64,000 bases of DNA, taken from assembly GCA_017937095.1 (NCBI GenBank), contig JAGBEG010000003.1:1-64000 (forward strand), written 5' to 3'. The DNA is from Roseburia sp. GTDB lineage: Bacteria; Bacillota; Clostridia; Lachnospirales; Lachnospiraceae. Shown piece by piece: positions 7,724-44,660 of this stretch. The position numbers and the translations under genes are program-made. Numbering within the stretch: the first letter of the stretch is position 1; the number at the start of each line of letters is the position of its first letter. The notes beneath the pieces were generated by a model, which worked only from the letters and a program-made list of their open reading frames with translations, ran no database searches and was not told the origin of the DNA.

Positions 7724-7743
7724 TGAGATAGGAGGAGACGAAA

Positions 7744-17691: not shown

Positions 17692-17757
17692 CAAAGCCTC
17701 CAGAATAGTTTTTTACAATTTTTATTTGAAAATATTATATCAGCGCCATGGGAGGAA

Positions 17758-17766
17758 TGCTATAGT
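17758..17766 (+). promoter_or_regulatory. Candidate extended -10 for the GH113 operon
   Basis: TGCTATAGT (17758-17766) lies 33 bases before the GH113 start. No good -35 is 17 bp upstream. This fits dependence on the divergent AraC activator. Confidence 0.4.
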
Positions 17767-17799
17767 TTTTGCAGAAAAAACAGGCAAAGGAGGATGGCG

Positions 17800-20578: not shown

Positions 20579-20664
20579 CAAGAAGAGTTGTGAAATATTT
20601 CCTAAATATAGAATCAGGGAAATTTTTAACAAGAGAAGTGATATTGAGAAAAGGAGAACAGGAT

Positions 20665-22380: not shown

Positions 22381-22468
22381 GAGCAGGATAAAAGCAAAGC
22401 GGCTGCCGTAGACGTTTGGAGCGGTGCTGCCGGTATGACGGCAGAATGATAATATATTGGGGGATGAC

Positions 22469-24664
22469 ATGATTCGTTATTATGAGAAGGAGCGTATCTT
22501 TAAGCTGGATACGCCGCATACAAGCTATGTGATCGGCATTGTGGATGAGGAGAATTTCATCGGACATGCCTATTACGGACCGCGCATCAGCGACGCCGGT
22601 GTGGGAGCGCTGATGCGCACGGATGAGCCGCCCTTTGTTCCGTCAAAGAACAACCGGGACAGAAGCTCGTTCCTCGATGCCTTTCCGTCGGAGTATCCGG
22701 GAAACGGCGTAGGCGATTACAGGGAAAGCGCGATAGAGGTACTGGATGCAAACGGCAACACCGCGGTGCAGCCGCTTTATGTGAAGCATGAAATCTATGC
22801 GGGGAAGCCGGGGATTCCCGGACTTCCGGCAACGTTTGCGGACGACGGGGACTGTGAGACGTTAGAGATCACGGCGGAGGACGCCATTCTCCATCTGGAA
22901 GTAAAGCTTTATTACACGGCGTTCTCGGATGTGGACGTCATCACGCGCAGCGTCCGGGTGAAAAACCTCGCGAAAGAGCCTATCTTCCTCACGAAGGTCA
23001 TGTCGGCGGCGCTCGATATGGATGCAGAGGATTATGAAATGCTGACGCTCCACGGTTCGTGGGCGAGAGAACGCCAGATCGAGCAGAGAAAGATCGGCTA
23101 CGGCAGACAGAATGTCGCATCGACAAGGGGCGAGTCGTCGCATCAGGAGCACCCGTTTGTAGCGCTGGTATCAGAAAACTGCGATCAGGAGCACGGGAGA
23201 GTGTACGGCTTTCATTTCGTGTATTCCGGCAATTTTCTGGCGCAGGTGGAGAAGAACCAGTTCGATTCCCTGCGCATTATCATGGGAATCCATCCGCAGG
23301 ATTTTCGGTGGGAGCTTTCGGAGGGAGAGACTTTCTTTGCGCCGGAGGTCGTGCTGACCTGCTCACAGCAGGGACTCGGCGGCATGACGCGAACCCTGCA
23401 TGACCTTTACCGGGAGCATCTGATCCGAAGTCCGTACAAGGATAAGGAGCGCCCCATTCTGATCAATAACTGGGAGGCGACTTACTTCGATTTCGATACG
23501 GAAAAGCTGCTTGCCATCGCGCGTGAGGCGAAGGAATCGGGAATTGAGATGCTCGTCATGGACGACGGGTGGTTCGGCTGCCGAAATGATGACAATACGA
23601 GCCTTGGCGACTGGACGGTGAATGAGGAGAAGCTTGCCGGAGGACTTAAGCATCTTGTGGATGAGGTGAACCGCATCGGGCTGAAATTCGGTATCTGGTT
23701 TGAGCCGGAGATGATCTCGCCGGAGTCTAAGCTTTACCGTGCGCACCCGGACTGGGCGATTGCACTGCCGGGACGGACGCCGTGCCGCTCGCGCAATCAG
23801 TATGTGCTCGATCTTTCACGGAAAGAGGTAAGGGATTACGTCTATGAGGCGGTTGCTTCCATATTGCGAAGCGCCAATATTGAATATGTAAAGTGGGATA
23901 TGAACCGTCAGCTTACCGATCTGGGAAGCGCTGTGTCTGGCGCGCGCGGGCAGGGAGAGCTTCTGCACCGCTACGTGCTTGCGGTGTACGAACTGCAGGA
24001 ACGGCTGATAGGGGAGTTCCCGGATCTTCTGCTGGAGAACTGCTCCGGCGGAGGCGCACGGTTCGATCCCGGTATGCTCTACTACAGCCCGCAGATCTGG
24101 TGCTCGGATGATACGGACGCAGTGGAACGCTTAAAGATTCAGGAGGGCACGGCGCTGATTTATCCGCTCTCTGCGATAGGGGCGCATGTGTCGGACTGCC
24201 CGAATCATACGGTCGGGCGCGTGACGCCGTTTGAGACGAGGGGAAATGTGGCGCTTGCCGGAACCTTCGGCTATGAGCTGGATATCACAAAGATTCCGAA
24301 GGAGGACCGCGCGCAGATTCCGGGACAGGTTGCGCAGTACCACAAGTATCACGCGCTGATCCAAAGCGGCGATTATTACCGTATCGCTTCCTATTCGAAG
24401 AACCATGCCTACGACTGCTATGCGGTTGTGGCAAAGGATAAGTCGGAGGCGCTGCTCACCTTTGTACAGGTGATAAACCGGCCGAATTACCACAGCAGAC
24501 GCATTCGCGTGCCGGGGCTTGCGCCGCAGAAGCGCTACCTTTTAGAGCCGGGCGGTGAGATTTACTACGGAGATACGCTGATACATGCGGGAATCAATAT
24601 TCCGAATATGTGGGGAGATTTCCAGTCCGTACGGCTTCATTTTACCGAGGTGACGGAGGCATAG
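22469..24664 (+). CDS. GH36 alpha-galactosidase, cytoplasmic
   Basis: A 731-residue GH36 enzyme: N-terminal beta-sandwich, central barrel with nucleophile Asp477 (YVKWDMNR) and acid/base Asp547 (WCSDDTDAVERLKIQ), and a C-terminal beta-domain. Residue numbering is almost the same as in the well-studied Geobacillus alpha-galactosidases. The motifs PFVPSKNNRDRSS, MDDGWFG and ENCSGGGARFDPG are also present. With no signal peptide it should remove alpha-1,6-galactose from imported galactomanno-oligosaccharides or raffinose-type sugars. It follows phosphohexomutase and precedes the LacI regulator. ATG 22469 follows a GGGGGA site. The 88-bp gap before it has a small 6-bp hairpin (22427-22444). Confidence 0.94.
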   Translation: MIRYYEKERIFKLDTPHTSYVIGIVDEENFIGHAYYGPRISDAGVGALMRTDEPPFVPSKNNRDRSSFLDAFPSEYPGNGVGDYRESAIEVLDANGNTAVQPLYVKHEIYAGKPGIPGLPATFADDGDCETLEITAEDAILHLEVKLYYTAFSDVDVITRSVRVKNLAKEPIFLTKVMSAALDMDAEDYEMLTLHGSWARERQIEQRKIGYGRQNVASTRGESSHQEHPFVALVSENCDQEHGRVYGFHFVYSGNFLAQVEKNQFDSLRIIMGIHPQDFRWELSEGETFFAPEVVLTCSQQGLGGMTRTLHDLYREHLIRSPYKDKERPILINNWEATYFDFDTEKLLAIAREAKESGIEMLVMDDGWFGCRNDDNTSLGDWTVNEEKLAGGLKHLVDEVNRIGLKFGIWFEPEMISPESKLYRAHPDWAIALPGRTPCRSRNQYVLDLSRKEVRDYVYEAVASILRSANIEYVKWDMNRQLTDLGSAVSGARGQGELLHRYVLAVYELQERLIGEFPDLLLENCSGGGARFDPGMLYYSPQIWCSDDTDAVERLKIQEGTALIYPLSAIGAHVSDCPNHTVGRVTPFETRGNVALAGTFGYELDITKIPKEDRAQIPGQVAQYHKYHALIQSGDYYRIASYSKNHAYDCYAVVAKDKSEALLTFVQVINRPNYHSRRIRVPGLAPQKRYLLEPGGEIYYGDTLIHAGINIPNMWGDFQSVRLHFTEVTEA

Positions 24665-24723
24665 CAGGGCGGAAAGCGAATTTTTCAAATAGAAAATATC
24701 AGATAAGAAGTGAGGAAAAGGAT

Positions 24724-25749
24724 ATGGCAAAGGCGGTGAAGCTCGCGGATATCGCGGAGCGCCTTGGAGTCAGCACAGTTACGGTGTCAAAAGCGCTGTC
24801 GGGACAAAAGGGCGTCAGTGAAGAACTGCGGGCGAAGATAAAATCACTGGCAGATGAGATGGGCTACAGGCAGCCCTCCACGCAGCGCCGGGAAAAAGCG
24901 GGCAGAAGCTATAACATAGGTGTGCTGATCTCGGAGCGCTATCTGGATAAATACGATTCATTTTATTGGCAGATGTATCAGCAGGTGGCGACGAGGGCGG
25001 TGGCGAAGGAGAGCTTCACGCTGATGGAGGTCGTCAGTACACAGGCGGAGGCGGAATGCGAGATGCCAAAGCTTGTGCAGGAGCAGAAGGTAGACGGAAT
25101 TATCATCATCGGGCGGCTGTTTGAACATTACCTTTCCTTCTTAAATGAGAAAACAGGACTTCCGCTGATTTATCTGGATTTCTGCGATGAAAAGGCGGAT
25201 ACGGACGCTGTGATTTCAGACAGCTACTACGGGGCTTACCGGCTGACGAATTATCTGTTCGATATGGGGCACCGGAGAATCGCTTATGTGGGAACGCTGC
25301 TTGCGACCGGTTCCATCACGGACCGCTACTTCGGCTATGTGAAATCCCTGCTCGAGCATGGACTTGCGGTGCGGGAGGACTGGGTGATTGAGGACCGCGA
25401 CAAAGAGACGGGAGAGATTGACGTGGAACGGCTCATACAGCTCCCTGAGGAGATGCCGACCGCCTTTGTCTGCAACTGCGATCTGACCGCCAGCTATCTG
25501 ATCAAGAAGCTGCGGGATGCAGGCTACCGCGTACCGGAGGATATTTCGGTGGCGGGATATGACAACTATCTATTCCCGGGGCTGTGCGACGTGGCGATTA
25601 CGACTTACGAGGTAGACATGAAGGAAATGGCGCGCAGGGCGATACAGACATTGACAAAGAAGATCAACGGTGAGAGCTACCGTCAGGGAATCTGCATTGT
25701 CGAAGGGCATATGGTCATAAAGGACAGTGTCCGCAGGGTAACGCAATAA
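24724..25749 (+). CDS. LacI-family transcriptional regulator
   Basis: At 341 residues it has an N-terminal LacI helix-turn-helix (VKLADIAERLGVSTVTVSKALSG, residues 4-26) and a hinge (GVSEELRAKIKSLADEMGYR), followed by a sugar-binding domain like periplasmic binding proteins. It is the last gene of the phosphohexomutase-GH36 group and is likely a repressor of mannan or alpha-galactoside genes. ATG 24724 with GAGGAAAAGG upstream is chosen over an ORF extension that overlaps the GH36 3' end. A foreign-looking cassette starts just behind it. Confidence 0.93.
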   Translation: MAKAVKLADIAERLGVSTVTVSKALSGQKGVSEELRAKIKSLADEMGYRQPSTQRREKAGRSYNIGVLISERYLDKYDSFYWQMYQQVATRAVAKESFTLMEVVSTQAEAECEMPKLVQEQKVDGIIIIGRLFEHYLSFLNEKTGLPLIYLDFCDEKADTDAVISDSYYGAYRLTNYLFDMGHRRIAYVGTLLATGSITDRYFGYVKSLLEHGLAVREDWVIEDRDKETGEIDVERLIQLPEEMPTAFVCNCDLTASYLIKKLRDAGYRVPEDISVAGYDNYLFPGLCDVAITTYEVDMKEMARRAIQTLTKKINGESYRQGICIVEGHMVIKDSVRRVTQ

Positions 25750-30606: not shown

Positions 30607-32073
30607 ATGAAATTGAAAAAGGTTTTAGCAGTTACCCTGGCAGCCGTTATGACGATGAGTATGGCAGCATGCGGCGACAGCACAGGAGAGACAAGCGGAA
30701 CAAATGACGGCGTAGCAGATAACAGCGCGGCAGCAGGTACGGAGGCAGCAGATGCCGGGGCAGCGGATGACGGCGCAGCGGATGACGGCGCAGCAGAGGG
30801 AAGCTTATCCTACGCGGACATTACATTAGGCGAGGATTACACGGATCTGACAGCGACTATTACGTTGTTCAACCACAGAACAGATATGGACAGCGCTGAT
30901 TACGGCGGAAAGAACTGGGAAAGCTATCTTGCAGATTTCAACGCAGTATACCCGAACATCACAGTTGAGATTACGACCGACACCAACTATGCGGACGACG
31001 CTCTGACACATTTACAGTCCGGCGACTATGAGACGATCATGATGATCCCGGCGGTGGATAAGGCAGACTTAAGCAATTACTTCGTATCTTACGGCGATCT
31101 TGACACGATGAAGGAGCAGATCAATTACGCAACGACCTGGGAGTACGGCGGAGAGGTATACGGTGTACCTTCCACAGCGACAACGCAGGGTATCGTTTAC
31201 AACAAGAAGGTATTCGAGGCAGCAGGTATTACCGAGCTTCCGAAGACTCCGGAAGAGTTCCTTGCAGCATTGCAGGCAATCAAGGATAACACAGATGCGA
31301 TTCCTCTTTACACCAACTATGCAGCAGGCTGGACCATGGGTGCATGGGATGCGTACATCGGCAACAATGCAACAGGCGATGTTACATACATGAATCAGAA
31401 ATTTGCTCACACCAAAGATCCGTTCCAGGATTACGGTGATGGCACACATGCATATGCAGTATACAAGATTCTCTATGATGCAGTAGCACAGGGCTTGATC
31501 GAGGATGACTACTCCACGACAGACTGGGAAGGCTGCAAGGGTATGATCAACAACGGCGAGATTGGTTGTATGGTACTTGGTTCCTGGGCTTACCCGCAGA
31601 TGGAAGCAGGCGGTCCGAACGCAGCGGATATCGGATATATGCCGTTCCCGATCACAGTAAACGGCGAGCAGTACGCATCCGCAGGCGCTGATTACTCCTA
31701 TGGTATCAATGTAAACGCATCTGCAGACGAGCAGGCAGCAGCAATGGTATTCGTTAAGTGGATGACCGAGGAATCCGGTTTCTCTTACAACGAGGACGGT
31801 CTCCCGGTAGCAAAGAGCAGCACAGAGACAAAGCTTGCATTTGAGGGCGTTACCTTCCTTGAGGACGAACCGTCTGTTGCAGGTGAGGAGGATCTCTTAA
31901 ACGAGCTCAATTCCGAGTCTGAGCTGAATATCAATGCAGGTGGAAATGACAAGATCCAGAAGATCATTGAGCACGCTTCCAACGGAGACATGACATTTGA
32001 TGAGATTATGGCTGAGTGGAATCAGGCATGGTCCGATGCACAGGAAGTATGCGGAGTTGAAGTAACCGAATAA
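30607..32073 (+). CDS. Manno-oligosaccharide ABC transporter binding lipoprotein (family 1 SBP)
   Basis: A 488-residue extracellular solute-binding protein with lipobox MAAC (Cys at residue 22), an acidic Ala/Gly/Asp linker to about residue 62, and a two-lobe family 1 fold for oligosaccharides (CUT1 class). Visible segments are YGVPSTATTQGIVYNKKVFEAAGI and GEIGCMVLGSWAYPQ. It is the first and probably most abundant product of the operon. The two permeases follow, and the enzymes downstream make beta-1,4-manno-oligosaccharides the expected ligand, as for the Roseburia intestinalis mannan-binding protein. No ATPase is encoded here, so a shared MsmK-like ATPase must be used. Confidence 0.88.
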   Translation: MKLKKVLAVTLAAVMTMSMAACGDSTGETSGTNDGVADNSAAAGTEAADAGAADDGAADDGAAEGSLSYADITLGEDYTDLTATITLFNHRTDMDSADYGGKNWESYLADFNAVYPNITVEITTDTNYADDALTHLQSGDYETIMMIPAVDKADLSNYFVSYGDLDTMKEQINYATTWEYGGEVYGVPSTATTQGIVYNKKVFEAAGITELPKTPEEFLAALQAIKDNTDAIPLYTNYAAGWTMGAWDAYIGNNATGDVTYMNQKFAHTKDPFQDYGDGTHAYAVYKILYDAVAQGLIEDDYSTTDWEGCKGMINNGEIGCMVLGSWAYPQMEAGGPNAADIGYMPFPITVNGEQYASAGADYSYGINVNASADEQAAAMVFVKWMTEESGFSYNEDGLPVAKSSTETKLAFEGVTFLEDEPSVAGEEDLLNELNSESELNINAGGNDKIQKIIEHASNGDMTFDEIMAEWNQAWSDAQEVCGVEVTE

Positions 32074-32118: not shown

Positions 32119-32169
32119 AACTGCCACAAAAACGGTGCGGTGTGTTTTTAAAGTGGAGGAAGTGTGAAC

Positions 32170-33201
32170 ATGGCAGCGACGGTTTCAAAAACAAAGAATG
32201 AAAAGAAACCATTTCATTTTATGAAGTGGGCAAAAAGCAGAAAAGGACAGCAGGTATTGATCTGCATAGCATTTATGGTAATTCCGCTGTTACTGCTGTT
32301 TACATTTACATATCTGCCATTTGGCGAGATGGTAAAATTCAGCTTTTACAAAATGAAATACAGTACCCCGGTCGACAAGAGAGTCTTCGTGGGACTGAAG
32401 AATTATATAGATGTGTTCCAGAGGGACGATTGCTTCGGGGCGCTCAAACTCAGCCTCTATTATATGGTCGGAGCGATTATCCAGCTTGTTCTGGCGTTGT
32501 ATCTGGCGACAATCTTAAGTTTTAAGGTGAAGGGCGGAAATTTCTTCAAGGGACTGATGTTCTTCCCGTATCTGATCAGCGGTATTGCAATCGGATTTAT
32601 CTTTAAATTTTTCTACACCAGAGGCTTCGTATTCGATACGATCTTACAGTGGTGTGGATTTGAACTTGAAAATCTTCCATACTGGTTAAAAGACCAGTCC
32701 ATCAACAACTGGTCTTTGGTAGCTACCTCCGTATGGCGTTATTTCGGACAGAATATGGTACTTTTCATCGGTGCCATCATGTCGGTGGACGCAGATCTCT
32801 ACGAGGCGGCGGAACTGGATGGTGCAAATAAATTCCAGCAGTTTAAACATATTATTCTGCCGAGCATCCGTACAATCGTGACCCTCAATGTGATTCTTTC
32901 CATCACAGGTTCCTTAAGCGCATTCGAGCAGCCGTTCGTTATTACAGACGGTGCGAACGGAACCGGTACGTATTTCGTTATCATGAACGATATTGCGCAT
33001 ACGAGCCAGAAGGTCGGTCTTGCGTGTGCGATGGCGGTCGTACTGCTCCTCATTATTTTCGCATGTACGATTTTGCAGAAGTTGTTCTTTAAATATGTCT
33101 TCCGCGACGCGGAGTCGGATGACGAATCCTACAAGGCGAAGAAGGCACGGCTTGCAGCGGAGAAAGCGGCGCGCCGTTCGACAAAGAAAGGGGTGGCATA
33201 A
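32170..33201 (+). CDS. Manno-oligosaccharide ABC importer permease 1 (MalF-like)
   Basis: About 343 residues with six membrane helices and the CUT1 EAA loop (YEAAELDGANKFQQFKHIILPSI, about residues 218-240). An ATG at 32170 and a GTG at 32164 are both possible with the GTGGAGGA site; spacing favours the ATG slightly. The Lys/Ala-rich C-terminal tail is cytoplasmic. It pairs with the next gene; no ATPase gene is adjacent. Confidence 0.9.
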   Translation: MAATVSKTKNEKKPFHFMKWAKSRKGQQVLICIAFMVIPLLLLFTFTYLPFGEMVKFSFYKMKYSTPVDKRVFVGLKNYIDVFQRDDCFGALKLSLYYMVGAIIQLVLALYLATILSFKVKGGNFFKGLMFFPYLISGIAIGFIFKFFYTRGFVFDTILQWCGFELENLPYWLKDQSINNWSLVATSVWRYFGQNMVLFIGAIMSVDADLYEAAELDGANKFQQFKHIILPSIRTIVTLNVILSITGSLSAFEQPFVITDGANGTGTYFVIMNDIAHTSQKVGLACAMAVVLLLIIFACTILQKLFFKYVFRDAESDDESYKAKKARLAAEKAARRSTKKGVA

Positions 33202-33204
33202 ACG

Positions 33205-34095
33205 ATGGAAAAATCGAATCTTCAGACAGCAGCAAAGCCTGTCGCACATAGAAGAAAGCATTATACGCCCGGCGGAATTATCTGGCTTATTGTAGAATAT
33301 GCATCTTTAATTTTCTTTGGCCTGTGCGCAGTGATTCCGGTCATCTCCTGTGTGATTACGGCGTTTAAGACAGAGGAAGAGTACCGCTCGACAAACGTCA
33401 TGACACTGCCGGAGAGCTGGCTTAATTTCGACAACTTTGTCAAAGCATTTCAGGCGGCGGATATGGGGCACGCGTTTTTAAATTCCGTAATCGTTATGGT
33501 CTGCGTACTGCTTGTTTCCGTTATCATCGGAACACAACTCGCCTATGTACTGAACCGTTTTAAGTTTCCTGGAAACGGACTGATCCGGAATCTGTTCCTG
33601 TTCGCATCCCTGCTTCCGTCGGTGGCAATGCAGGTAACGGTATATCAGATCATGACAAACCTTCATCTGGTCAATCATCTGTACGGATATATTATCATGA
33701 TGTGTGGAACCGATGTAATTTCGATTTACATTTTCATTCAGTTCATGGAAAACATTCCGGTTTCGCTGGATGAATCGGCGATTATCGACGGGGCGTCCTA
33801 CTGGACGATTTACTGGAAAATCATGCTGCCGCTGCTTAAGCCCGCAATCGTGACATCCTGCATCTTAAAGGGCGTGGGCGTGTATAACGAGTACTATGCA
33901 GCGAACCTCTATTTGCAGAAAAAGGAACTGCATACCATCGCGATTTCGCTCTACACCTTCGTTGGACCGATGGGAAGCCAGTATAATCTCATTTGTGCAG
34001 GCGTTATCATCTCTTTGCTTCCGGCACTGATCGTGTTCATCCTCTGCCAGAAACAGATCTACAGTGGTATCGCGGCAGGAGCTGTCAAGGGTTAG
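33205..34095 (+). CDS. Manno-oligosaccharide ABC importer permease 2 (MalG-like)
   Basis: A 296-residue permease with six hydrophobic segments and the EAA-loop equivalent DESAIIDGASYWTIYWKIMLPLLKP (split here as DESAIIDGAS and IMLPLLKP, about residues 191-215). It starts 3 bp after the first permease stop, so the pair is translationally linked. It completes the CUT1 membrane channel for manno-oligosaccharides. Confidence 0.9.
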   Translation: MEKSNLQTAAKPVAHRRKHYTPGGIIWLIVEYASLIFFGLCAVIPVISCVITAFKTEEEYRSTNVMTLPESWLNFDNFVKAFQAADMGHAFLNSVIVMVCVLLVSVIIGTQLAYVLNRFKFPGNGLIRNLFLFASLLPSVAMQVTVYQIMTNLHLVNHLYGYIIMMCGTDVISIYIFIQFMENIPVSLDESAIIDGASYWTIYWKIMLPLLKPAIVTSCILKGVGVYNEYYAANLYLQKKELHTIAISLYTFVGPMGSQYNLICAGVIISLLPALIVFILCQKQIYSGIAAGAVKG

Positions 34096-34115: not shown

Positions 34116-35357
34116 ATGGCAAACGCAGAAGGTGTGCAGACGCTTGCTGCAATGAAGGACGAAATAAAGCACGAACTGCTTTTTGATATTATCCCGTTTT
34201 GGAGAAAACTGCGGGACGATGAATACGGCGGCTATTATGGCTGGCTTGCTTACGATTTGGAATTGGATAAAAAGGCACAAAAGGGCTGTATTCTAAACAG
34301 CCGCATCACATGGTTCTTTGCCAACGCCTATACGGCGTACAGGAACGGATTTCTTACCGATGCGGAGTGCGAGGCGGCGGGCTTTACGGGCAGTGACCTT
34401 TTGGCGGAGGCAAGGCATGGATATGAGTTTCTGCGCGCACACTGTGTGGACGAGGAGTTCGGCGGCATCTACTGGTCGTTAAATTACGACGGAACGCCGC
34501 TTGATACGACAAAGCATACATATAATCAGGCTTTCTGCATCTATGCGTTAGCTTCCTATTATGAAGCGTCGGGTGATGAGGAAGCGCTTGCGTTGGCGCG
34601 CAGGCTGTTTCATCTGATCGAGGAGAAATGTACGGATGAGATTGGCTATCTCGAGGCATTCACCAGAGAATTTGCGCCGGAATCCAACGAGAAGCTTTCT
34701 GAAAACGGCGTGCTCGCAGATAAGACGATGAACACACTTCTTCATGTGTTCGAGGCGTACACAGAGCTTTACCGCGTCGCCCCGGATGACGAAGTGGGGG
34801 CGCGTCTTCGCCGGATTATGGATGTGTTCGCGGATAAGGTATACAATCCCGCAAAGCGCAGGCAGGAGGTCTTCTTCGACGCAGAGTATAACACGATCTT
34901 AGATCTTCATTCCTACGGGCATGACATTGAGACGGCGTGGCTTATGGACCGCGGCGTGGAGGTGCTCGCAGACCCGGAATACGAAGAGAAGATGAGCCCG
35001 ATCACACAGGCGCTGACGGCGCAGATTTACGAGACGGCGTTTGACGGGCATTCTCTGGCGAACGAGTGCGACAGAGGCGTCGTCAATACGCACCGCGTCT
35101 GGTGGGTGCAGGCGGAGACGGTAGTCGGATTCTTAAACGGCTATGAAAAGACGCCGGAGCACACCGAGTACAAAGAGGCGGCAATCGCCCAGTGGGAGTT
35201 CATCAAAGAATATGTGATTGATGCACGCCCAGGCTCAGAGTGGTACTGGGAGGTGAATGAGGACGGAAGTCCGATTCCTGACAGACCGATCGTGGAGCCG
35301 TGGAAGTGCCCGTATCATAACGGGAGGATGTGCATCGAAGTGCTCAAAAGGATTTGA
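34116..35357 (+). CDS. Mannobiose 2-epimerase (cellobiose 2-epimerase / AGE family)
   Basis: A 413-residue (alpha/alpha)6 barrel of the N-acylglucosamine/cellobiose 2-epimerase family. Conserved segments are LNSRITWFFANAY, EFGGIYWSLNYDG, KHTYNQAFCIYALA, SYGHDIETAWL and HRVWWVQAETVVGF, with several conserved His residues of the active site (for example in HSYGHDIE). It should turn beta-1,4-mannobiose into mannosyl-glucose, the substrate of the GH130_1 phosphorylase encoded next. GGAGG lies 7 bases before the ATG. This gene pair is the hallmark of the mannobiose phosphorolysis pathway first shown in Bacteroides and Ruminococcus. Confidence 0.93.
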   Translation: MANAEGVQTLAAMKDEIKHELLFDIIPFWRKLRDDEYGGYYGWLAYDLELDKKAQKGCILNSRITWFFANAYTAYRNGFLTDAECEAAGFTGSDLLAEARHGYEFLRAHCVDEEFGGIYWSLNYDGTPLDTTKHTYNQAFCIYALASYYEASGDEEALALARRLFHLIEEKCTDEIGYLEAFTREFAPESNEKLSENGVLADKTMNTLLHVFEAYTELYRVAPDDEVGARLRRIMDVFADKVYNPAKRRQEVFFDAEYNTILDLHSYGHDIETAWLMDRGVEVLADPEYEEKMSPITQALTAQIYETAFDGHSLANECDRGVVNTHRVWWVQAETVVGFLNGYEKTPEHTEYKEAAIAQWEFIKEYVIDARPGSEWYWEVNEDGSPIPDRPIVEPWKCPYHNGRMCIEVLKRI

Positions 35358-35440: not shown

Positions 35441-36616
35441 ATGTTGCACGAAAAGTATTATACGGAGAAGGAGAAGCAGGAGAAGCTGCTCTCCAGAAAG
35501 AATGTGAAGTCGGATTTCTACAACGGCGTATTTGACCGTTACGAGTATCCGGTGCTCACGAGAGAGCACATTCCGCTGACATGGCGGTATGACTTAAATC
35601 CAGAGACGAATCCGTATTTCATGGAGCGTCTTGGCGTCAACGCAGTCATGAATTCCGGCGCAATCGAGCTGGACGGAAAATATTATCTGGTGGCGCGCAT
35701 CGAGGGGAACGACAGAAAGTCCTTCTTCGGCGTGGCGGAGAGCGACAACGGTGTGGATGGTTTCCGTTTCTGGGATTACCCGATTCTTCTTGCGGATACC
35801 TGCCCGGAGGAAACGAACGTTTATGATATGCGCCTGACAAAGCATGAGGACGGTTATATTTACGGCGTGTTCTGCTCGGAGTCGAAGGATAAGAGCACAA
35901 ACGATCTGTCTGCGGCGGTCGCGGCGGCAGGTATTGTCCGCACCAAAGATTTAAAGAACTGGGAGCGCCTTCCGAATCTTGTGACGCTTCATTCCCCGCA
36001 GCAGAGAAACGTGGTGCTGCACCCCGAGTTCGTGGATGGAAAGTACGCGTTCTATACAAGACCGATGGATGATTTCATTGAGACGGGAAGCGGCGGCGGT
36101 ATCGGCTTCGGACTCTGCGAGGATATCACCCACGCGGTGATCGACGAGGAGAAGATGACGAGCCTGCGCAAGTATCACACGATCACGGAGGCGAAGAACG
36201 GAGCGGGCGCAACGCCGATCAAGACCGAAAAGGGCTGGATTCACATTGCACACGGCGTGCGTAATACGGCGGCAGGGCTCCGCTATGTCATCTACGCATT
36301 TGCGACGGACTTAAACGATCCTTCGAAGGTGATTGCAGAGCCGTCGGGACTTTTGATCGGACCGAGAGGCGAAGAGCGCGTCGGTGACGTCAGCAATGTC
36401 GTTTTCACAAACGGTGCGATTGTAAATGAAAACGGCGAGGTGTTCCTCTACTACGCATCTTCCGATACGAGAATGCACGTCGCGACGACGACGCTTGAGA
36501 AATTGATCGATTATGTATTCAACACCCCGCAGGACCCGGGACGTTCCGTAGAGTGCGTGGCGCAGCGATGTGAACTGATTCGTAAGAACCTTGCATTGTT
36601 GGAGCGGCAGGCGTGA
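35441..36616 (+). CDS. GH130_1 4-O-beta-D-mannosyl-D-glucose phosphorylase
   Basis: The 391-residue five-bladed propeller protein matches subfamily 1: [12 protein letters not shown]-like start (here [12 protein letters not shown]), [17 protein letters not shown], and NVYDMRL with catalytic Asp129. It should convert mannosyl-glucose plus phosphate to alpha-mannose-1-phosphate and glucose. Position right after the mannobiose 2-epimerase supports this reaction. Length is normal for the subfamily (about 390 residues, longer at the N-terminus than GH130_2). Confidence 0.93.
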
Positions 36617-36710: not shown

Positions 36711-37733
36711 ATGAGCAAATATAAAATGATAAGCCCGGCAGTGCCGAATGTGCCGTGGCAGGAGCGCCCGGAGGGTATCACGGATGCGCCGGTCTGGAGA
36801 TATCATGAGAATCCGATTATCGGAAGAAATCCGGTGAAGGGCGTGGCGAGAATCTTTAACAGCGCGGTCATGCCGTATGAGGACGGATTTATCGGTGTAT
36901 TTCGCGGAGAGCAGACGAACGGCATCCCGTATATTTACCTTGGCAGAAGCGAGGATGCGATTCACTGGAACTTCGAGGAGAATAAGATTGATTTCGTGGA
37001 CGAGGAAGGAAAGCCGTTCATGCCGGTATACGCATACGATCCGCGTCTGGTAAAGGTGGAGGACACCTATTATATCATCTGGTGTCAGGATTTCTATGGC
37101 GCGGCGATCGGTATGGCAAAGACGACGGACTTTAAGACCTTTACGAGAATCGAGAATCCATTCCTCCCGTTCAACCGCAACGCAGTGCTTTTCCCGCGCA
37201 AGATTAACGGCAATTTCATGCTGTTATCCCGTCCGTCCGACAGCGGGCACACACCGTTTGGTGATATTTTCATCAGTGAAAGCCCGGATCTGACCTATTG
37301 GGGCAAGCACAGACATGTGATGGGAAAAGGCTCTGAGTGGTGGGAGTCCTTAAAAATCGGCGGCGGTGCAGCTCCGATTGAGACTTCCGAGGGATGGCTT
37401 TTGTTCTATCACGGTGTGAGCGGAACCTGCAACGGTTATGTGTACTCGATCGGCGGTGCGATCTTAGACATCGACAATCCTTCCATCGTGAAATACCGCT
37501 GTGAGAATTTCCTTCTGACGCCGGAAGAGTGGTACGAGGAGCGCGGCTTTGTGCCGAACGTATGCTTCCCGTGCGCGACGATTCACGATTCCGCGTCCGG
37601 TAAGATCGCGATTTACTACGGTGCGGCTGACAGTTATGTAGGTCTTGCTTTTACAGAGCTGGACGATATTATTGACTACATCAAGGAACACAGCGCTGTG
37701 ACAACGGCCGACACGGAAATCGGAAGAAGATAA
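36711..37733 (+). CDS. GH130_2 beta-1,4-mannooligosaccharide phosphorylase
   Basis: A 340-residue GH130 enzyme of the shorter subfamily 2 type: PVWRYHENPIIGRNP, ARIFNSAVMPYEDGF, YAYDPRLVKVED with catalytic Asp110, and the phosphate-binding Arg/His region FYHGVSGTCNGYVYSIG. It should release alpha-mannose-1-phosphate from the non-reducing end of manno-oligosaccharides longer than two units, complementing the GH130_1 enzyme. There are 94 bp between the two genes. The product goes to the phosphohexomutase encoded at 20665. Confidence 0.93.
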   Translation: MSKYKMISPAVPNVPWQERPEGITDAPVWRYHENPIIGRNPVKGVARIFNSAVMPYEDGFIGVFRGEQTNGIPYIYLGRSEDAIHWNFEENKIDFVDEEGKPFMPVYAYDPRLVKVEDTYYIIWCQDFYGAAIGMAKTTDFKTFTRIENPFLPFNRNAVLFPRKINGNFMLLSRPSDSGHTPFGDIFISESPDLTYWGKHRHVMGKGSEWWESLKIGGGAAPIETSEGWLLFYHGVSGTCNGYVYSIGGAILDIDNPSIVKYRCENFLLTPEEWYEERGFVPNVCFPCATIHDSASGKIAIYYGAADSYVGLAFTELDDIIDYIKEHSAVTTADTEIGRR

Positions 37734-37926: not shown

Positions 37927-37947
37927 AAGGAAGAGAAGGAGAGCGGT

Positions 37948-38997
37948 ATGTTCATATCACCGGAGAACGAAAATTTGCAATACAGCGGGCGCATTGACTT
38001 CGACGACGCGTCCGCGCCTGTGCTTGTCTATGCGGCGAGCTGGGTAAAAATGGTCTTTACGGGAACTTCGGCTGCGGTTACGCTTGCCAACCACCATTCC
38101 TACTGGACGAATGAGATGGGATATTTTATCGACGGAAAGCAGGCGCGCATCCGTCTTCGTGACGACGACGCAAAGGAGACTTATCTGTTGGCGGAAAATC
38201 TTAGCGATACCCGTCATGAGCTTCTGTTCTTTAAGCGGATGGATTCATGTCATACCGTGACCTTCTACGGCTTTACGGTGGACGACGGCGCAAGGCTTTT
38301 TATGCCGTCTCCAAAGCCCGCGCGCCGTATCGAGGTGTTCGGTGACAGCGTATCCTGCGGCGAGGTATCGGAGGCGGTCGATTTCGTGGGAAAAGAAGAC
38401 CCGGAGCATGACGGGCAGTATTCCAATAGCTGGTATTCCTATGCGTGGATGACGGCGCGAAAGCTGAATGCAGAGCTGCACGATACCTCGCAGGGCGGAA
38501 TTGCGCTTCTCGACCATACGGGCTGGTTCGCGGCTCCCGATTATAAAGGGGTGGAATCCTGTTATGATAAGATAGAGTACCACCCGGAGCTGGGAGCGGC
38601 AAAGCAGTGGGATTTTTCCCGCTATACGCCGCAGGTCGTTATCGTTGCGATCGGGCAGAATGACAATCATCCGGACGATTATATGGCGGAGGACTATGAC
38701 GGGGAGAAGGGAAGGAACTGGCGTAAGCATTACCGGAAGTTCGTTGAGCGTCTGATGGAACTCTACCCTAAGGCGCAGATCATTCTTGCGACGACGATCT
38801 TACAGCACGATGCGAACTGGGATAAGGCAATCGGCGAGGTATGCGCGCAGATTGGAAACGGGAGGGTGCATCATTTCCTGTATCAGAGAAACGGCGCGGG
38901 AACGCCGGGACACATCCGCATCCCGGAGGCAGAGGAGATGTCGGAGGAGCTTGCCTGCTATATCCGCTCGCTCGGCGAAGAAATCTGGGATGCGTAG
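37948..38997 (+). CDS. CE2-type acetylesterase acting on acetylated manno-oligosaccharides
   Basis: 349 residues in the two-part CE2 layout: an N-terminal beta-sandwich (about residues 1-120) and an SGNH hydrolase domain with Ser134 (FGDSVSCG), IGQNDN, and a late His (TPGHIRIPEAEEM) for the Ser-His dyad. It resembles the R. intestinalis CE2 enzyme that, with the CE17 partner, removes acetyl groups from all positions of imported acetylated mannan oligosaccharides. No signal peptide. ATG 37948 follows GAAGGAGA and is preferred to a far-upstream start that would run through the structured leader. Confidence 0.86.
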   Translation: MFISPENENLQYSGRIDFDDASAPVLVYAASWVKMVFTGTSAAVTLANHHSYWTNEMGYFIDGKQARIRLRDDDAKETYLLAENLSDTRHELLFFKRMDSCHTVTFYGFTVDDGARLFMPSPKPARRIEVFGDSVSCGEVSEAVDFVGKEDPEHDGQYSNSWYSYAWMTARKLNAELHDTSQGGIALLDHTGWFAAPDYKGVESCYDKIEYHPELGAAKQWDFSRYTPQVVIVAIGQNDNHPDDYMAEDYDGEKGRNWRKHYRKFVERLMELYPKAQIILATTILQHDANWDKAIGEVCAQIGNGRVHHFLYQRNGAGTPGHIRIPEAEEMSEELACYIRSLGEEIWDA

Positions 38998-39071
38998 AAG
39001 AATGAAAAATGTGTGCATTACGCCCGCAGAAAGAGAAGAGAACCGGAAGCATTCGGCAGAATGGAGGAAAT

Positions 39072-40208
39072 ATGGAATATCAGATTGACAAAGAAAAAGG
39101 AATTGCAAATGTAGGAAATACCGACCGTTTAAAGGAAGTGTTCGCACGCGCCGGGCGCGGGGAACATCTGACGCTCGGATTTCTGGGCGGTTCGATCACA
39201 CAGGGAAGTCTTTCGTCTTCGCCGGAGACCTGTTATGCCTACCGTGTCTATGAGTGGTGGCGCAAGACATTTCCGCAGGCAGAGTTCACTTATCTTAATG
39301 CCGGAATCGGCGGAACGACGTCGCAGTTCGGCGTGGCGAGAGCACAGACCGATCTGCTTGCGGGGAAACCGGATTTTGTGATCATTGAATTTTCGGTCAA
39401 CGACGAGAGCACGGAGCATTTTATGGAGACTTATGAGGGACTGGTGCGAAGCGTTTGCGGAGCGGAGTTCTCGCCTGCGGTTCTTCTGGTGCACAATGTC
39501 TATTATCACAACGGGGGAAACGCACAGCTTATGCACGGGCGCGTCGGAAGACATTACGGGCTTCCGGCAGTGAGTATGCAGAGCGCGATTTTCCCGGAGG
39601 TAGTGAGCGGCAGAATCGAAAACCGTGCGATCACGCCGGACGATCTGCACCCGAACGATGCGGGGCACGCGCTGGTGGCGTCGGTCATCACTTATTTTCT
39701 GGAAAAGGTGCGGATTGGAGCGCTCGATGCGGCGGAGGATAAAGCAGCCGCACTTCCAGCGCCGCTCACGGCGAACGCCTACGAGCATTCTGTGCGTTAC
39801 CGCAATTCCTATGCGCCGGATATGGCGGGGAGAGAACAACCGGTGCTCTGCGGCTTTGCGGAGGATGCCGCGCCGCAGGACGGTATCACGGACTGCTTTA
39901 AATACGGCTGGACGGCGTCGCATGCTGGGGATGCAATCACATTTCATGTGGAGGGAAGCTGCATTGCGGTGCAGTACCGGAAATCGGTAAGGCTTCCGGC
40001 GCCTGTCGCAGAGGTCGTCGTGGACGGCGACACAGAGCACGCATTCCGGCTGGATGCGAACTTTGATGAGACATGGGGCGATAAACTGGAGCTTGATACG
40101 GTCATGGAGCACGGGAAAACAGGACTGCATGAGGTGACGGTCCGATTGACCGAAACGCATGAAAAGGACGCGGTGCCGTTCTATCTGGTATCGGTGATCG
40201 GTTCATAA
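39072..40208 (+). CDS. CE17 acetyl-mannan esterase with C-terminal CBM35-like domain
   Basis: A 378-residue SGNH esterase with a beta-sandwich C-terminal domain (about residues 240-378). The triad reads Ser41 (LGGSITQG), Asp190 and His193 (PDDLHPNDAGH), and block III is SVNDEST. This matches the R. intestinalis CE17 enzyme, which removes 2-O-acetyl groups from mannose and uses the CBM35-like domain to complete the active site. It follows the CE2 gene by 74 bp; deacetylation is needed before the epimerase and GH130 steps. ATG 39072 follows GGAGGAAAT. Confidence 0.88.
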   Translation: MEYQIDKEKGIANVGNTDRLKEVFARAGRGEHLTLGFLGGSITQGSLSSSPETCYAYRVYEWWRKTFPQAEFTYLNAGIGGTTSQFGVARAQTDLLAGKPDFVIIEFSVNDESTEHFMETYEGLVRSVCGAEFSPAVLLVHNVYYHNGGNAQLMHGRVGRHYGLPAVSMQSAIFPEVVSGRIENRAITPDDLHPNDAGHALVASVITYFLEKVRIGALDAAEDKAAALPAPLTANAYEHSVRYRNSYAPDMAGREQPVLCGFAEDAAPQDGITDCFKYGWTASHAGDAITFHVEGSCIAVQYRKSVRLPAPVAEVVVDGDTEHAFRLDANFDETWGDKLELDTVMEHGKTGLHEVTVRLTETHEKDAVPFYLVSVIGS

Positions 40209-40241: not shown

Positions 40242-42335
40242 ATGAGGGCAAAACGAAAGATTAAGTATACGCTGATTCAGGCATTTTTCATCCCTGTAGT
40301 GCTGATCGTGCTTTTGGGAGCGCTTTCTTATCAGAAAGCGGCAAAGAGCGTGACACAGCAGTACGAAAGCTCTGCGGAGGCGACGGCAGGCGCAGTCAGC
40401 AATTACTGCGACCTGCTCTGCAATACGGTGGAAGTGAAGATGAACGAACTGGTCACGAATGACGCCGTAACTGCTTACTATGGGCGTTATGCGGGAAAGA
40501 CCGACAGCGACGCGATGCAGACCTTCCGCGAGGCGCAGTCTGCGTTTACGACAGCCAAAGGGACCTGCCGCTATATCTATGGATATTATGTGGCAGCGGA
40601 AAAGGGCGGAACTTTCTCTTCTGCATCTACGGCTCTTCCGAATGACGCTTATGCCGCGCTGGCAGAAAGCGGCGAGGTCGACAGTGTGAATGCGACCGGA
40701 GGCGTCTGGATGGGATATCACAGGTATTTCGATACGGCACTGCAGATTGATGAGAATGCGTACGGGCTGTCCTATGTCCGCAGGCTTGTGAAAGGCAACG
40801 GCTATGTGTGCATGGATATTTCCATGGATAAGATTACAGAGATGCTTGGCGATGCGGGAGGAGATGAGAAATCCTATGCGATCCTGCTTTGCCCGGATGG
40901 AAGGGAAATTGTCATGCAGGCAGGCGAGCTGCTTACCGCAGAGCAGATCCCGTTTTCGGGCAGTGAACTTCTCGACAGGATAGAAGCGGAAGCTTCCGAT
41001 GCCGGGGTCGGTCAGAAGGAAGTTTCCGGGGCAGAGGACGCTGCGGCGGAAGCGGCGCAGGAAACAAGCTCCTATGTGCAGATTGCAGGGGAGAACTATC
41101 TTTTTATCCACAGCGCAGTCGGTAAGACAGGGCTTACGGTGTGCAGCCTCATTCCGGAAAGTTCGATTCTTGAGTCGGCGAAGGATATCAAAACAATGAC
41201 AATTGTCATCGTATTGGCGGCGTGTATCATTGCGCTTGCAGTGGGAAGCTTTCTTGCAGCGCGCATCAGCGGTGAGGTCAACCGGATGGTACGCACAATG
41301 CAGCGCGCAGCGGAAGGAGATTTCACGGTTTCGGTCGCGTCGAAACGCAGGGATGAATTTCAGGTGATGGCGGCGCGCACATCCGATATGTTCGAGAGCG
41401 TCCGGGCGGCGTTGGGGCGGGTCGTCGTGTTCGGGGATGAGGTGAGAAATACGGCGGAGCGGCTTGCGGAGGCGAACGCCGGAATGGCGGAATCCATGCA
41501 GGGAATCAATGCGGCGATGGACGAGGTCGCGAAGGGCGTCGGACAGCAGTCCGCAGACGCGGAGGCGAGCTATGAACAGATGGTACGCTTTTCGGGCATT
41601 TTAAAGGAACTGACGGAGGAGACGGGACGGATGCAGCAGACGTCGGGCGGCGTCATGGAGGCAATCGCATCCGGGAGCACACAGGTGTCAGAGCTTGCCG
41701 AAAAATCCGGCGAGGCGGGAAAGAGTACGGAGGTGCTCCTCTCCAATATCGAGGAGGTACAGCATAAATCGGAGAATATCGGCGGTATCGTCGATGCGAT
41801 ACAGGAGATTGCATCGCAGACCAATCTTCTCTCATTAAACGCCTCCATCGAGGCGGCGAGAGCCGGGGAAGCCGGAAGAGGGTTTGCGGTGGTCGCAGAG
41901 GAAATCCGCAGGCTTTCCGAGCAGTCCGTGGAATCGGCGGAGAAGATCGAGCGGCTTGTGGAAAGTATTCAGCAATCGGCGAAAAACACGACCGTGTGCG
42001 CACAGCAGACCAGAGAGGTGTTGGATGAGCAGAATGCATCCGTTGACAATACGATTGATATTTTCGGGAAAATCGCTTCCGATGTGACTGGAATGACAGA
42101 TACGCTGAAAAAAGTGATTGAAAAAATGTCCGGAATGTTAGAAGATAATGAAAGGGTCTTAACTGCGGTGCAGAGTATGGCGGCAGTATCGGAAGAGGAA
42201 GCTGCGAGCGCGCAGGAAATTACCGCGACGGTCAATACGCAGCTTTGCGAGGCGCAGAATATGGCGGTACAGGCAAAACAGTTAAGCGAAGCGACAGAGC
42301 AGCTTGGCGAGCTGCTGAAGAGATTTCAGGTATAA
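40242..42335 (+). CDS. Methyl-accepting chemotaxis protein within the mannan operon
   Basis: A 697-residue chemoreceptor: first membrane helix about residues 12-30, an extracellular sensor of about 290 residues (dCache-like), second helix ([17 protein letters not shown] region, about residues 320-342), HAMP, and a long cytoplasmic signalling domain whose tip reads [21 protein letters not shown]. No C-terminal pentapeptide tether is present. GATAGGAGAAG precedes ATG 40242; an upstream GTG at 40209 is less likely. It lies between CE17 and GH1, so it is probably induced with mannan use and may steer motility towards manno-oligosaccharides, directly or through the binding lipoprotein. This implies a flagellated host. 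Confidence 0.92.
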
Positions 42336-42350
42336 GACGGAGGAGACGGC

Positions 42351-44660
42351 ATGTTTCGAGATGATTTTGTGTGGGGCGTGGCAAGCAGCGCCTATCAGGT
42401 AGAGGGAAGCGATCCGGCGGACGGCAGAGGAAAAACGGTCTGGGATATGTTCACGGAGGACGGCAGGGTGTATGAGAATCAGAATGCGTATACGAGCTGC
42501 GACCATATGCACCGTTATAAAGAGGATATCGCGCTGATGAAGCATCTTGGAATCCGGGCATACCGCTTTTCTTTGAACTGGGCGCGGATTCTGCCGGAGG
42601 GCACGGGAAGGGTCAACGAGAAAGCAATCGCGATGTACCGTGATATGATTCTTACGATGAAGGAAAACGGAATCACACCGTATATTACGATGTTCCACTG
42701 GGAGTTTCCGCTTGCGCTCTACGAGCAGGGCGGCTGGATGAACCCGAAGGTCGTGGATTGGTTCGGGGAATATGCGAAGGTCGTTGCGGAGCATTTTTCG
42801 GATCTGTGCGAGTATTTTATCACAATCAATGAACCGCAGTGCGTTGTGGGGCTGGGGCATCTGAGCGGGGTGCACGCGCCGGGCGTGAAGCTGTCTGTAA
42901 AAGAGACGTTTGTCGTAGCACATCATCTTCTGATGGCGCACGGACAGGCGGTCATCAATCTGCGTAAGTATGCGTCCCGCCCGGTTAAGGTCGGCTTTGC
43001 GCCGACGGGCAGCGTGGCATATCCGTATACGGACAGCCCCGAGGATATTGCCGCGGCGAAGAAGGCTTACTTTGGCTTTTATAATCCGATGGAGAACTGG
43101 ACATGGAATGTGTCATGGTTCTCAGACCCTGTATTTCTGGGGCATTATCCTGCGGAGGGCTTAGAGAAATTCGCGGCGTATCTGCCGGATATCAGGGAAG
43201 AGGATATGAAGCTCATCCACCAGCCGTTAGACTTCATGGGGCAGAATATCTATAACGGCTACTATGTGCGCGCGGGAGCAGACGGCGAGCCGGAATTTGT
43301 GAACCGTGCGCCGGGCTTTCCGAAGACGGGATCGGCCTGGCCGGTAACGCCGGAGGCATTCTACTACGGCATTAAATTTCTGACGGAGCGGTATCCGCTG
43401 CCGCTTTATATTACCGAAAACGGTATGTCCTGTCATGACATTGTAAGCAGTGACGGGCGGGTGCACGATCCGAACCGCATCACATTTCTGGATTCCTACA
43501 TTGGGGCAATGCAGCGGGCTTACGATGAGGGCGCAAATGTGGCAGGCTATTTCCTGTGGACATTCCTTGACAACTTTGAGTGGGCAGACGGCTACAAACA
43601 GCGGTTCGGCATCATTCATGTGGATTTTGAGAGCCAGAGACGTATCGTAAAGGATTCGGCATACTGGTATAAGGATATGATAAAAACAAACGGAAGGACA
43701 TTATCTATGAATCAGACGACGAAAGAAATATTATTTTTAGATCCGGTCTGCACCCATAATATCTGGGGCGGAACGAGGCTCAGAGAGGAATTCGGCTACC
43801 CGGCAGAGGGAGACGACATCGGAGAGTGCTGGGGCATTTCGGCGCATCCGAACGGAGACGGTACGATCCGCTGCGGCGCTTACGCGGGGATGAAGCTGTC
43901 TGCGGTGTGGGAAGAGCACCCGGAGGTATTCGGCAATCTGGACTGTGACAGATTCCCGCTCCTTACGAAGATTATTGACGCGCGGGACGATCTGAGCATT
44001 CAGGTACACCCGGACGACGCGTATGCGAAGGTACACGAGAACGGCTCTCTCGGCAAGACCGAGTGCTGGTACATTCTGGATGCACCGGAGAATGCTACAC
44101 TTGTAATAGGACACAATGCAAAGACAAAAGAAGAGCTTTTCGATATGATTCACGGGGGGCGTTTTCGGGAGCTCATCCGCGAGATTCCGGTGAAGAAAGG
44201 GGATTTTATCCAGATCGATCCGGGTACGGTACATGCGATCAAGGGCGGAATCCTGCTCCTTGAGACACAGCAGAACAGTGATATCACTTACCGTGTTTAC
44301 GATTATGACAGGCTTCAGAATGGCAAGCCGAGGGAGCTTCATGTGGAAAAGAGCATTGACGTGATTACGGTTCCGGCAAAATCAGTGGAGGATTCCGTAA
44401 AGTCGGCGGCTGACCTGCCGAAGAACCGGCCCAATGAGCTGTATTCCTGCAGCTATTATAAGATTTTCAAGCTGGACGTAGCGGGAGAAATGACATTTGC
44501 GCAGGACTATCCGTTCCTGCTCATGTCGGTCATCAGCGGAAGCGGTATTATAAACGGACAGCCGGTGAAGAAGGGCGATCACTTTATTTTGCCGTGCGGC
44601 TTCGGGGAGGTTAAGCTTACCGGAGAGATGAGCATGATCGCATCGACTGTGACTGCCTGA
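42351..44660 (+). CDS. Fusion protein: GH1 beta-glycosidase plus class I mannose-6-phosphate isomerase
   Basis: One 769-codon frame joins two full enzymes. Residues 1-450 form a GH1 barrel with acid/base Glu161 (FITINEPQ) and nucleophile Glu356 (YITENG). Residues 453-769 form a class I phosphomannose isomerase with the zinc-site motifs IQVHPDD, KTECWYIL and GTVHAIKGG. The first half should remove beta-linked glucose (or mannose) from oligosaccharides; the second converts mannose-6-phosphate to fructose-6-phosphate, the last step of this pathway. Met453 (43707) has a GGAAGG nine bases upstream, so the isomerase may also be made separately from an internal start. GGAGG precedes ATG 42351. Confidence 0.93.
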   Translation: MFRDDFVWGVASSAYQVEGSDPADGRGKTVWDMFTEDGRVYENQNAYTSCDHMHRYKEDIALMKHLGIRAYRFSLNWARILPEGTGRVNEKAIAMYRDMILTMKENGITPYITMFHWEFPLALYEQGGWMNPKVVDWFGEYAKVVAEHFSDLCEYFITINEPQCVVGLGHLSGVHAPGVKLSVKETFVVAHHLLMAHGQAVINLRKYASRPVKVGFAPTGSVAYPYTDSPEDIAAAKKAYFGFYNPMENWTWNVSWFSDPVFLGHYPAEGLEKFAAYLPDIREEDMKLIHQPLDFMGQNIYNGYYVRAGADGEPEFVNRAPGFPKTGSAWPVTPEAFYYGIKFLTERYPLPLYITENGMSCHDIVSSDGRVHDPNRITFLDSYIGAMQRAYDEGANVAGYFLWTFLDNFEWADGYKQRFGIIHVDFESQRRIVKDSAYWYKDMIKTNGRTLSMNQTTKEILFLDPVCTHNIWGGTRLREEFGYPAEGDDIGECWGISAHPNGDGTIRCGAYAGMKLSAVWEEHPEVFGNLDCDRFPLLTKIIDARDDLSIQVHPDDAYAKVHENGSLGKTECWYILDAPENATLVIGHNAKTKEELFDMIHGGRFRELIREIPVKKGDFIQIDPGTVHAIKGGILLLETQQNSDITYRVYDYDRLQNGKPRELHVEKSIDVITVPAKSVEDSVKSAADLPKNRPNELYSCSYYKIFKLDVAGEMTFAQDYPFLLMSVISGSGIINGQPVKKGDHFILPCGFGEVKLTGEMSMIASTVTA

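Follow-up and report, generated by a model that had tools for sequence, protein, structure and literature searches.

A predicted bifunctional GH1 beta-glucosidase and mannose-6-phosphate isomerase encoded as one protein in a mannan-oligosaccharide locus of Roseburia sp.

Described GH1-isomerase fusions

Butyrate-forming gut bacteria use loci of the kind treated here on dietary mannans. The best described protein of the type is RiGH1 (ROSINTL182_05469/70), a 768-amino-acid GH1-isomerase fusion encoded in the Roseburia intestinalis MULL (La Rosa 2019, PMC6385246). The available text of that paper shows the interconversion of mannose-6-phosphate (M6P) and fructose-6-phosphate (F6P) by the C-terminal piece (D2). 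It also reports that the N-terminal piece RiGH1_D1, printed as amino acids 1-246, showed no activity on the substrates assayed, among them G4, M4, M5, M6P, G6P and F6P. Two further relatives have been predicted according to the accessible parts of their papers. One is the fusion RhGH1-M6P of the R. hominis RhMosUL (PMC9784577), and the other is the “GH1 isomerase (FpGH1)” of the F. prausnitzii FpMULL (PMC8262883). An isomerase is not mentioned in the portion of PMC13278490 that was available.

The window analysed here is a stretch of 64,000 nucleotides from Roseburia sp. (family Lachnospiraceae; contig JAGBEG010000003.1, positions 1 to 64,000). RiGH1, as far as described, resembles the window protein in domain order, near-equal length and type of locus, and its isomerase activity has been shown. 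Its printed internal border lies at amino acids 246/247, whereas that of the window protein, known from sequence, lies at about 449-453. The published RhGH1-M6P belongs to strain A2-183, whereas the strain compared here is An869. FpGH1 comes from the same kind of locus by its description, while the sampled genomes outside the family of the window were without the fusion. A sequence-only reading of the window had taken no fusion of this kind to be characterised. This was mistaken, as the R. intestinalis case is in print with its isomerase activity (PMC6385246). The window protein itself is new; this kind of fusion has been described before.

The mannan locus

The gene set of the window resembles the mannan loci of R. 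intestinalis and R. hominis as they are described in the available text of PMC6385246 and PMC9784577. It shares with the RiGH1 setting GH130, an epimerase, an ABC transporter (permeases inferred), esterases and a phosphomutase. Genes that precede the fusion include:

17590..18744, + strand: GH113, predicted mannan-oligosaccharide hydrolase (start codon unsettled)
20590..22380, + strand: phosphoglucomutase/phosphomannomutase, predicted to convert mannose-1-phosphate to M6P
22457..24664, + strand: GH36 alpha-galactosidase
24610..25749, + strand: LacI-type regulator (start codon unsettled)
30607..32073, + strand: ABC solute-binding protein
32164..33201 and 33205..34095, + strand: two predicted ABC permeases (from position and same-order homologues in related loci)
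34116..35357, + strand: AGE-type 2-epimerase (mannobiose epimerase-like)
35441..36616, + strand: GH130 phosphorylase
36711..37733, + strand: GH130 phosphorylase
37945..38997, + strand: CE2-type acetyl esterase
39069..40208, + strand: GDSL esterase (named CEX here)
40242..42335, + strand: chemoreceptor (dCache_1, HAMP, MCPsignal), immediately before the fusion gene

One or more GH130 homologues turned up in 14 of the 16 further wide stretches compared around fused genes. The GDSL esterase was the sole marker in L138, a whole contig of 18.7 kb, and L145 held no marker at all. Among the named stretches, L036, L037 and L038 likewise carry the GDSL esterase as the sole marker beside the fusion. GH26 was not found in the genome of the window (94.6% complete) at an E-value of 0.001. 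The lack of such a match fits the use of oligosaccharides rather than of the polymer, which the available text of PMC6385246 argues for R. hominis.

The chemoreceptor matches the Pfam models MCPsignal (116 bits), HAMP (25.6 bits; cut-off 25) and, below its cut-off of 45, dCache_1 (27.3 bits). Homologues occupy the corresponding position in R. hominis An869 (L035, 40%) and in G045 (L140, 37%), and another adjoins a separate isomerase gene in L048 (34%). The receptor may steer cells toward manno-oligosaccharides. On the 3′ side of the fusion, a GH3 gene (44775-46073) encodes a protein with a hydrophobic N-terminus that resembles beta-N-acetylhexosaminidases (182 bits; cut-off 207). Given both properties, it is unlikely to be the intracellular beta-glucosidase of the locus.

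The fusion gene

The fusion gene and its parts are:

42339..42345, + strand: GGAGGAG, likely the fusion gene's ribosome-binding site (read from the sequence)
42351..44660, + strand: GH1 and mannose-6-phosphate isomerase fusion gene (open frame, Pfam and NCBIfam models)
42351..43694, + strand: GH1 domain of beta-glucosidase type, residues 1-448 (Pfam, alignment to Ks5A7, site conservation)
43695..43709, + strand: junction without spacer domain, residues 449-453, R-T-L-S-M (junction comparison)
43707..44657, + strand: type I (Bacillus ManA-like) mannose-6-phosphate isomerase (PMI) domain (Pfam, NCBIfam, 1qwr match, site conservation)

The frame at 42351-44660 (+) runs for 769 codons without an internal stop and encodes 769 amino acids. 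A complete GH1 domain (2-448) is followed directly by a type I PMI (about 454-769), as in RiGH1, within a single open frame of about 768 amino acids. The ATG stands 15 bases past the end of the chemoreceptor gene, and the GGAGGAG ends five bases before it. The two halves have near-equal GC contents (53.1 and 52.7%) and third-position GC contents (64.7 and 64.4%). A lost stop codon or an assembly error was ruled out, since the fusion is present in other genera at 56-75% identity. It is thus real and, from sequence comparison, very likely functional. The sequence-only reading had proposed one polypeptide with both halves complete, and this holds: both family models score above their cut-offs within the one frame, and the catalytic glutamates Glu161 (NEP) and Glu356 (TENG) lie at the positions that it gave.

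The GH1 half matches Pfam Glyco_hydro_1 at residues 2-448 (460 bits). Its full-length match and both catalytic glutamates place it among GH1 beta-glucosidases, and the NCBIfam beta-glucosidase model TIGR03356 scores 492 bits (cut-off 478.5). Scores for 6-phospho-beta-glucosidase/galactosidase models remained far lower (PRK13511 310.9 bits against 610; lacG 265.6 against 561.2), and the matches to PRK09589, PRK09852, PRK09593 and PRK15014 were also under their cut-offs. The closest solved chain is Ks5A7 (PDB 9l0q; E 1.2e-159), with 223 of 451 aligned columns identical (49%). E163 and E357 of Ks5A7 align with E161 and E356, which identifies Glu161 as the acid/base and Glu356 as the nucleophile. 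In the available text of PMC4468940, the glutamine mutants of E163 and E357 are without activity on pNPGlc. While these glutamates align, Ks5A7 itself is a stand-alone enzyme from a metagenome.

In the isomerase half, Pfam places PMI_typeI_cat at 462-561 and MPI_cupin_dom at 699-766. The assignment to type I PMI (manA) follows from TIGR00218, which scores 200 bits (cut-off 116.2), together with the Q, H, E, H and R site residues. The ManA-type isomerase of PDB 1qwr aligns along nearly the whole half (2-313 of 317 residues; E 2.4e-98), although 1qwr is a stand-alone protein and not a fusion. In its own genome the fused PMI is the sole PMI_typeI_cat match, and a search there for bact-PGI_C gave no match. 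It is nevertheless not claimed as the only M6P isomerase, because a GMP/PMI-like protein is also present (TIGR01479 189 bits, under the cut-off of 373).

Proposed role

The reading that we favour, with a probability of about 0.72, is that of one bifunctional protein of a beta-mannan (glucomannan) oligosaccharide locus, which joins a GH1 beta-glucosidase to an M6P isomerase and whose R. intestinalis counterpart appeared inactive in its GH1 part because it was cut at residue 246. The protein is predicted to be most likely cytoplasmic. The GH130 phosphorylases would release mannose-1-phosphate, which the phosphomutase of the locus would convert to M6P. The C-terminal metal-dependent isomerase would then form F6P, a reaction that the available text of PMC6385246 demonstrates with the orthologue from R. 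intestinalis. An intact retaining GH1 beta-glucosidase would most likely trim beta-1,4-linked glucose off the non-reducing termini of glucomanno-oligosaccharides after import, and this removal would let the mannosyl phosphorylases go on. The view that the halves serve two steps of one pathway, already put forward from the sequence, agrees with this scheme. The fusion would tie the production of an early-step enzyme firmly to that of a late-step one. There is no sign of substrate channelling, since neither half makes what the other consumes.

It has to be considered that glucose removal from glucomannan oligosaccharides is not the main task of the GH1 half, which could instead be mostly a beta-mannosidase or act on a different beta-glycoside. 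The mannan locus itself and the existence of beta-mannosidases within GH1 (stated in the available portion of PMC13278490) are compatible with this. In addition, two GH3 beta-glucosidases serve glucose trimming in R. intestinalis, so the GH1 domain may do something else. Against a beta-mannosidase stand the beta-glucosidase model above its cut-off and the properties of Ks5A7, which cleaves cellobiose to cellopentaose and for which activity on pNP-beta-mannoside was not detected (PMC4468940, as available). We therefore consider this alternative unlikely, and the preferred assignment of the GH1 half is that of a glucose-removing beta-glucosidase.

The junction and a possible internal start

A further alternative is that the gene yields, besides the full fusion, a second product, an isomerase on its own that begins at Met453, perhaps in the species of the window only. 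The layout proposed from the sequence is present as described, with GGAAGG at 43692-43697, nine bases before the Met453 ATG at 43707, and L006 has the same layout. The separate product proposed with it is not supported, as an ATG occurs at that codon in two of 20 fused loci (the window and L006). Two more loci (L014 and L013) have an ATG one or two codons further on, and L009 and L036 have a GTG at the Met453 codon. From four codons before to seven codons after this position, an in-frame ATG occurs in six of the 20 loci (L037 and L115 being added), GTG alone in three and TTG alone in two; the other nine have no ATG, GTG or TTG there. The 20 loci leave out L035 and L038; L018/L154, in which the GH1 runs to the edge of its contig, and L021/L164 are not counted as fused. 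L165 (G006), where GH1 348-448 is in frame with the PMI at a contig edge, counts as fused for junction and PMI only, and L036 and L037 are possibly close kin of G060.

GGAAGG also forms the codons of Gly448 and Arg449. Asn447-Gly448 is invariant in 12 aligned proteins, so coding constraint on the conserved GH1 end can explain part of the motif. From these comparisons a conserved second product from an internal start is unlikely, and the two-product alternative, even when restricted to one species, appears improbable. Met453 may instead be the leftover start codon of an isomerase gene that formerly stood alone. The separate PMI of G099 (L186) reads MNGEKEILF and the fused PMI of that genome (L014) MNKEKEILF.

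Active sites, selection and the published cut

Q16, H116, W117, N160, Y301, W403, E410 and W411 are further GH1 active-site residues. Along with both catalytic glutamates, all are unchanged in the 19 complete fused proteins, except that N160 is kept in 18 and is D in one. The sites are equally unchanged in 43 rows outside GH1-PMI fusions (42 and the window; W117 not counted), a “separate” set that also includes L018, the GH1-CE2 row L019 and L040. Q551, H553, E571, H628 and R648, the site residues of the isomerase, are unchanged in 20 of 20 fused isomerase halves and equally so in 41 PMI rows outside such fusions (40 and the window). As these residues are just as conserved in unfused sequences, their conservation argues for activity and not for the fusion.

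Both halves are, as judged from codon comparison, under purifying selection. In seven fused pairs, dN/dS was 0.029-0.059 for the GH1 half and 0.038-0.097 for the isomerase half; these ratios are rough because all but two of the 14 dS values lie above 1.2. The comparison of the window with L006 was saturated, and closer pairs were used instead. The ratio was lower in the GH1 half in six of the seven pairs, which share members and are not all independent.

The published border was applied to the window protein and to that of R. hominis An869. A cut at 246/247 falls close to position 241 in the GH1 profile, which has 453 positions, and parts Glu161 from Glu356 in both. The first piece covers GH1 model positions 5-241 in the window protein (5-240 in R. 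hominis An869), and the second covers GH1 model 241-452 and both isomerase models. Residue 246 of the R. intestinalis protein was placed by analogy with orthologues of 767-769 amino acids. If the 768-residue protein aligns as these do, then D1 is half an enzyme and its inactivity is uninformative on the GH1 domain. The published N-terminal inactivity is most simply explained as a half-barrel artefact, and on these coordinates the GH1 half of the described fusion has probably never been assayed as a whole enzyme. The published map of the pathway gives the GH1 half no role.

Least probable is a GH1 half without useful catalysis that would scaffold the isomerase or help it to oligomerise, for which the reported D1 inactivity speaks, but against which stand an assayed piece that would be half a barrel, the near-invariant GH1 sites and the lower GH1 dN/dS ratios.

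Distribution of the fusion

The search for the same domain order across genomes of the family, suggested in the sequence-only reading, has now been run: among 299 genomes, 12 carry the fusion at full length, the own genome included. Order and class searches, also counting the own genome, gave nine of 392 and four of 391. Combined, the three overlapping sets hold 17 distinct genomes with the fusion, all in the family of the window; an 18th, G006, has the gene split over two contigs. No fusion was found in sampled genomes outside this family in the order (n = 392) and class (n = 391) searches. These counts refer to strict E-values (1e-60, 1e-150 and 1e-120), to genomes drawn evenly from larger groups and to the best two or three candidates per genome.

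The 11 other full fusions of the family search are 56-75% identical to the window protein, and mean column identity is 72% among 12 aligned fusion proteins. Among the 80 matches listed, at least four named loci (L035-L038) carry the fusion. The R. hominis An869 protein (L035), also among the matches listed, is 75% identical to that of the window. Streptococcus oralis L057 seemed to match along its whole length (1-765, 34%) but has stop codons between GH1 and PMI and is no fusion. In L062, the gene ahead of the separate PMI was considered as a remnant of GH1, which was rejected because it is a CE2 homologue. G376 of the class search (query 442-766) has a separate PMI, and the 17 kb examined held no GH1 homologue at an E-value of 1e-5. 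The patchy distribution offers a natural set for the question of why enzymes that pass no substrate between them are joined.

Variant fusions and history

As a test of a single origin of the fusion, one clade of fused halves was rejected by the AU test for GH1 (p 2.3e-8) and for the PMI (p 5.2e-5), and two smaller PMI groupings were rejected too (p 2.3e-10 and 2.6e-4). All these tests come from rapidly built trees in which many forks are weak and in which repeated gain, loss and domain exchange are not separable. For the GH1 test, 27 unfused GH1 rows were taken from the tree, and L018 was left out. L023 was dropped from the PMI trees, and the PMI set of the AU tests was also without L099, L034, L163, L029, L026, L057 and L085. 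The GH1 tree implies five to seven changes, depending on the row set. The PMI tree implies 12, with two or three forced by the starred branches. In G099, the fused PMI groups with the separate PMI of its own genome (SH-aLRT 99).

Variant arrangements were also seen. The GH1 of L039 ends with NGANLYINQKK and a stop, much like the L007 junction NGEILSINQKERP, which suggests that the isomerase was lost in L039. In a mannan locus of G288 (L155:9187-11628), GH1 and CE2 share one 814-codon frame after the same L-S-V-N junction, so that a CE2-type esterase stands where others carry the isomerase. CE2_N is above its cut-off there, and the GDSL model (31.8 bits) is just below 32.9. A literature search for the GH1-CE2 form, with all terms combined, found no paper. 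The 1007-codon frame L040:183-3203 encodes a GDSL esterase, GH1 and then a probable short remnant of the isomerase cupin (39% over 41 amino acids, E 7.5e-6 in a search of seven stretches; no cupin from Pfam). The GH1-CE2 and esterase-GH1 forms were each seen once, in draft data. On balance, though with modest confidence, the GH1 half of this known fusion would be an active beta-glucosidase whose printed inactivity came from a split barrel, and its ends would be a site of repeated joining and exchange of mannan-locus enzymes (isomerase or CE2 C-terminally, esterase N-terminally), with more than one gain or loss.

Other joined frames involve the PMI. In L163 (minus strand), a different type I PMI (7108-8055; 40%) lies just downstream of a separate GH1 and runs, in one 635-codon frame, into an apparent ROK-type sugar kinase (label by reading). 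In L160:8761-11265, one open frame covers a PMI together with a GH5 protein that has a signal-like start of its own; the arrangement may be due to a missing stop and not to a fusion that works. In L161:1402-3384, a 661-codon frame, the PMI runs into an apparent PHP-type phosphoesterase, also labelled by reading.
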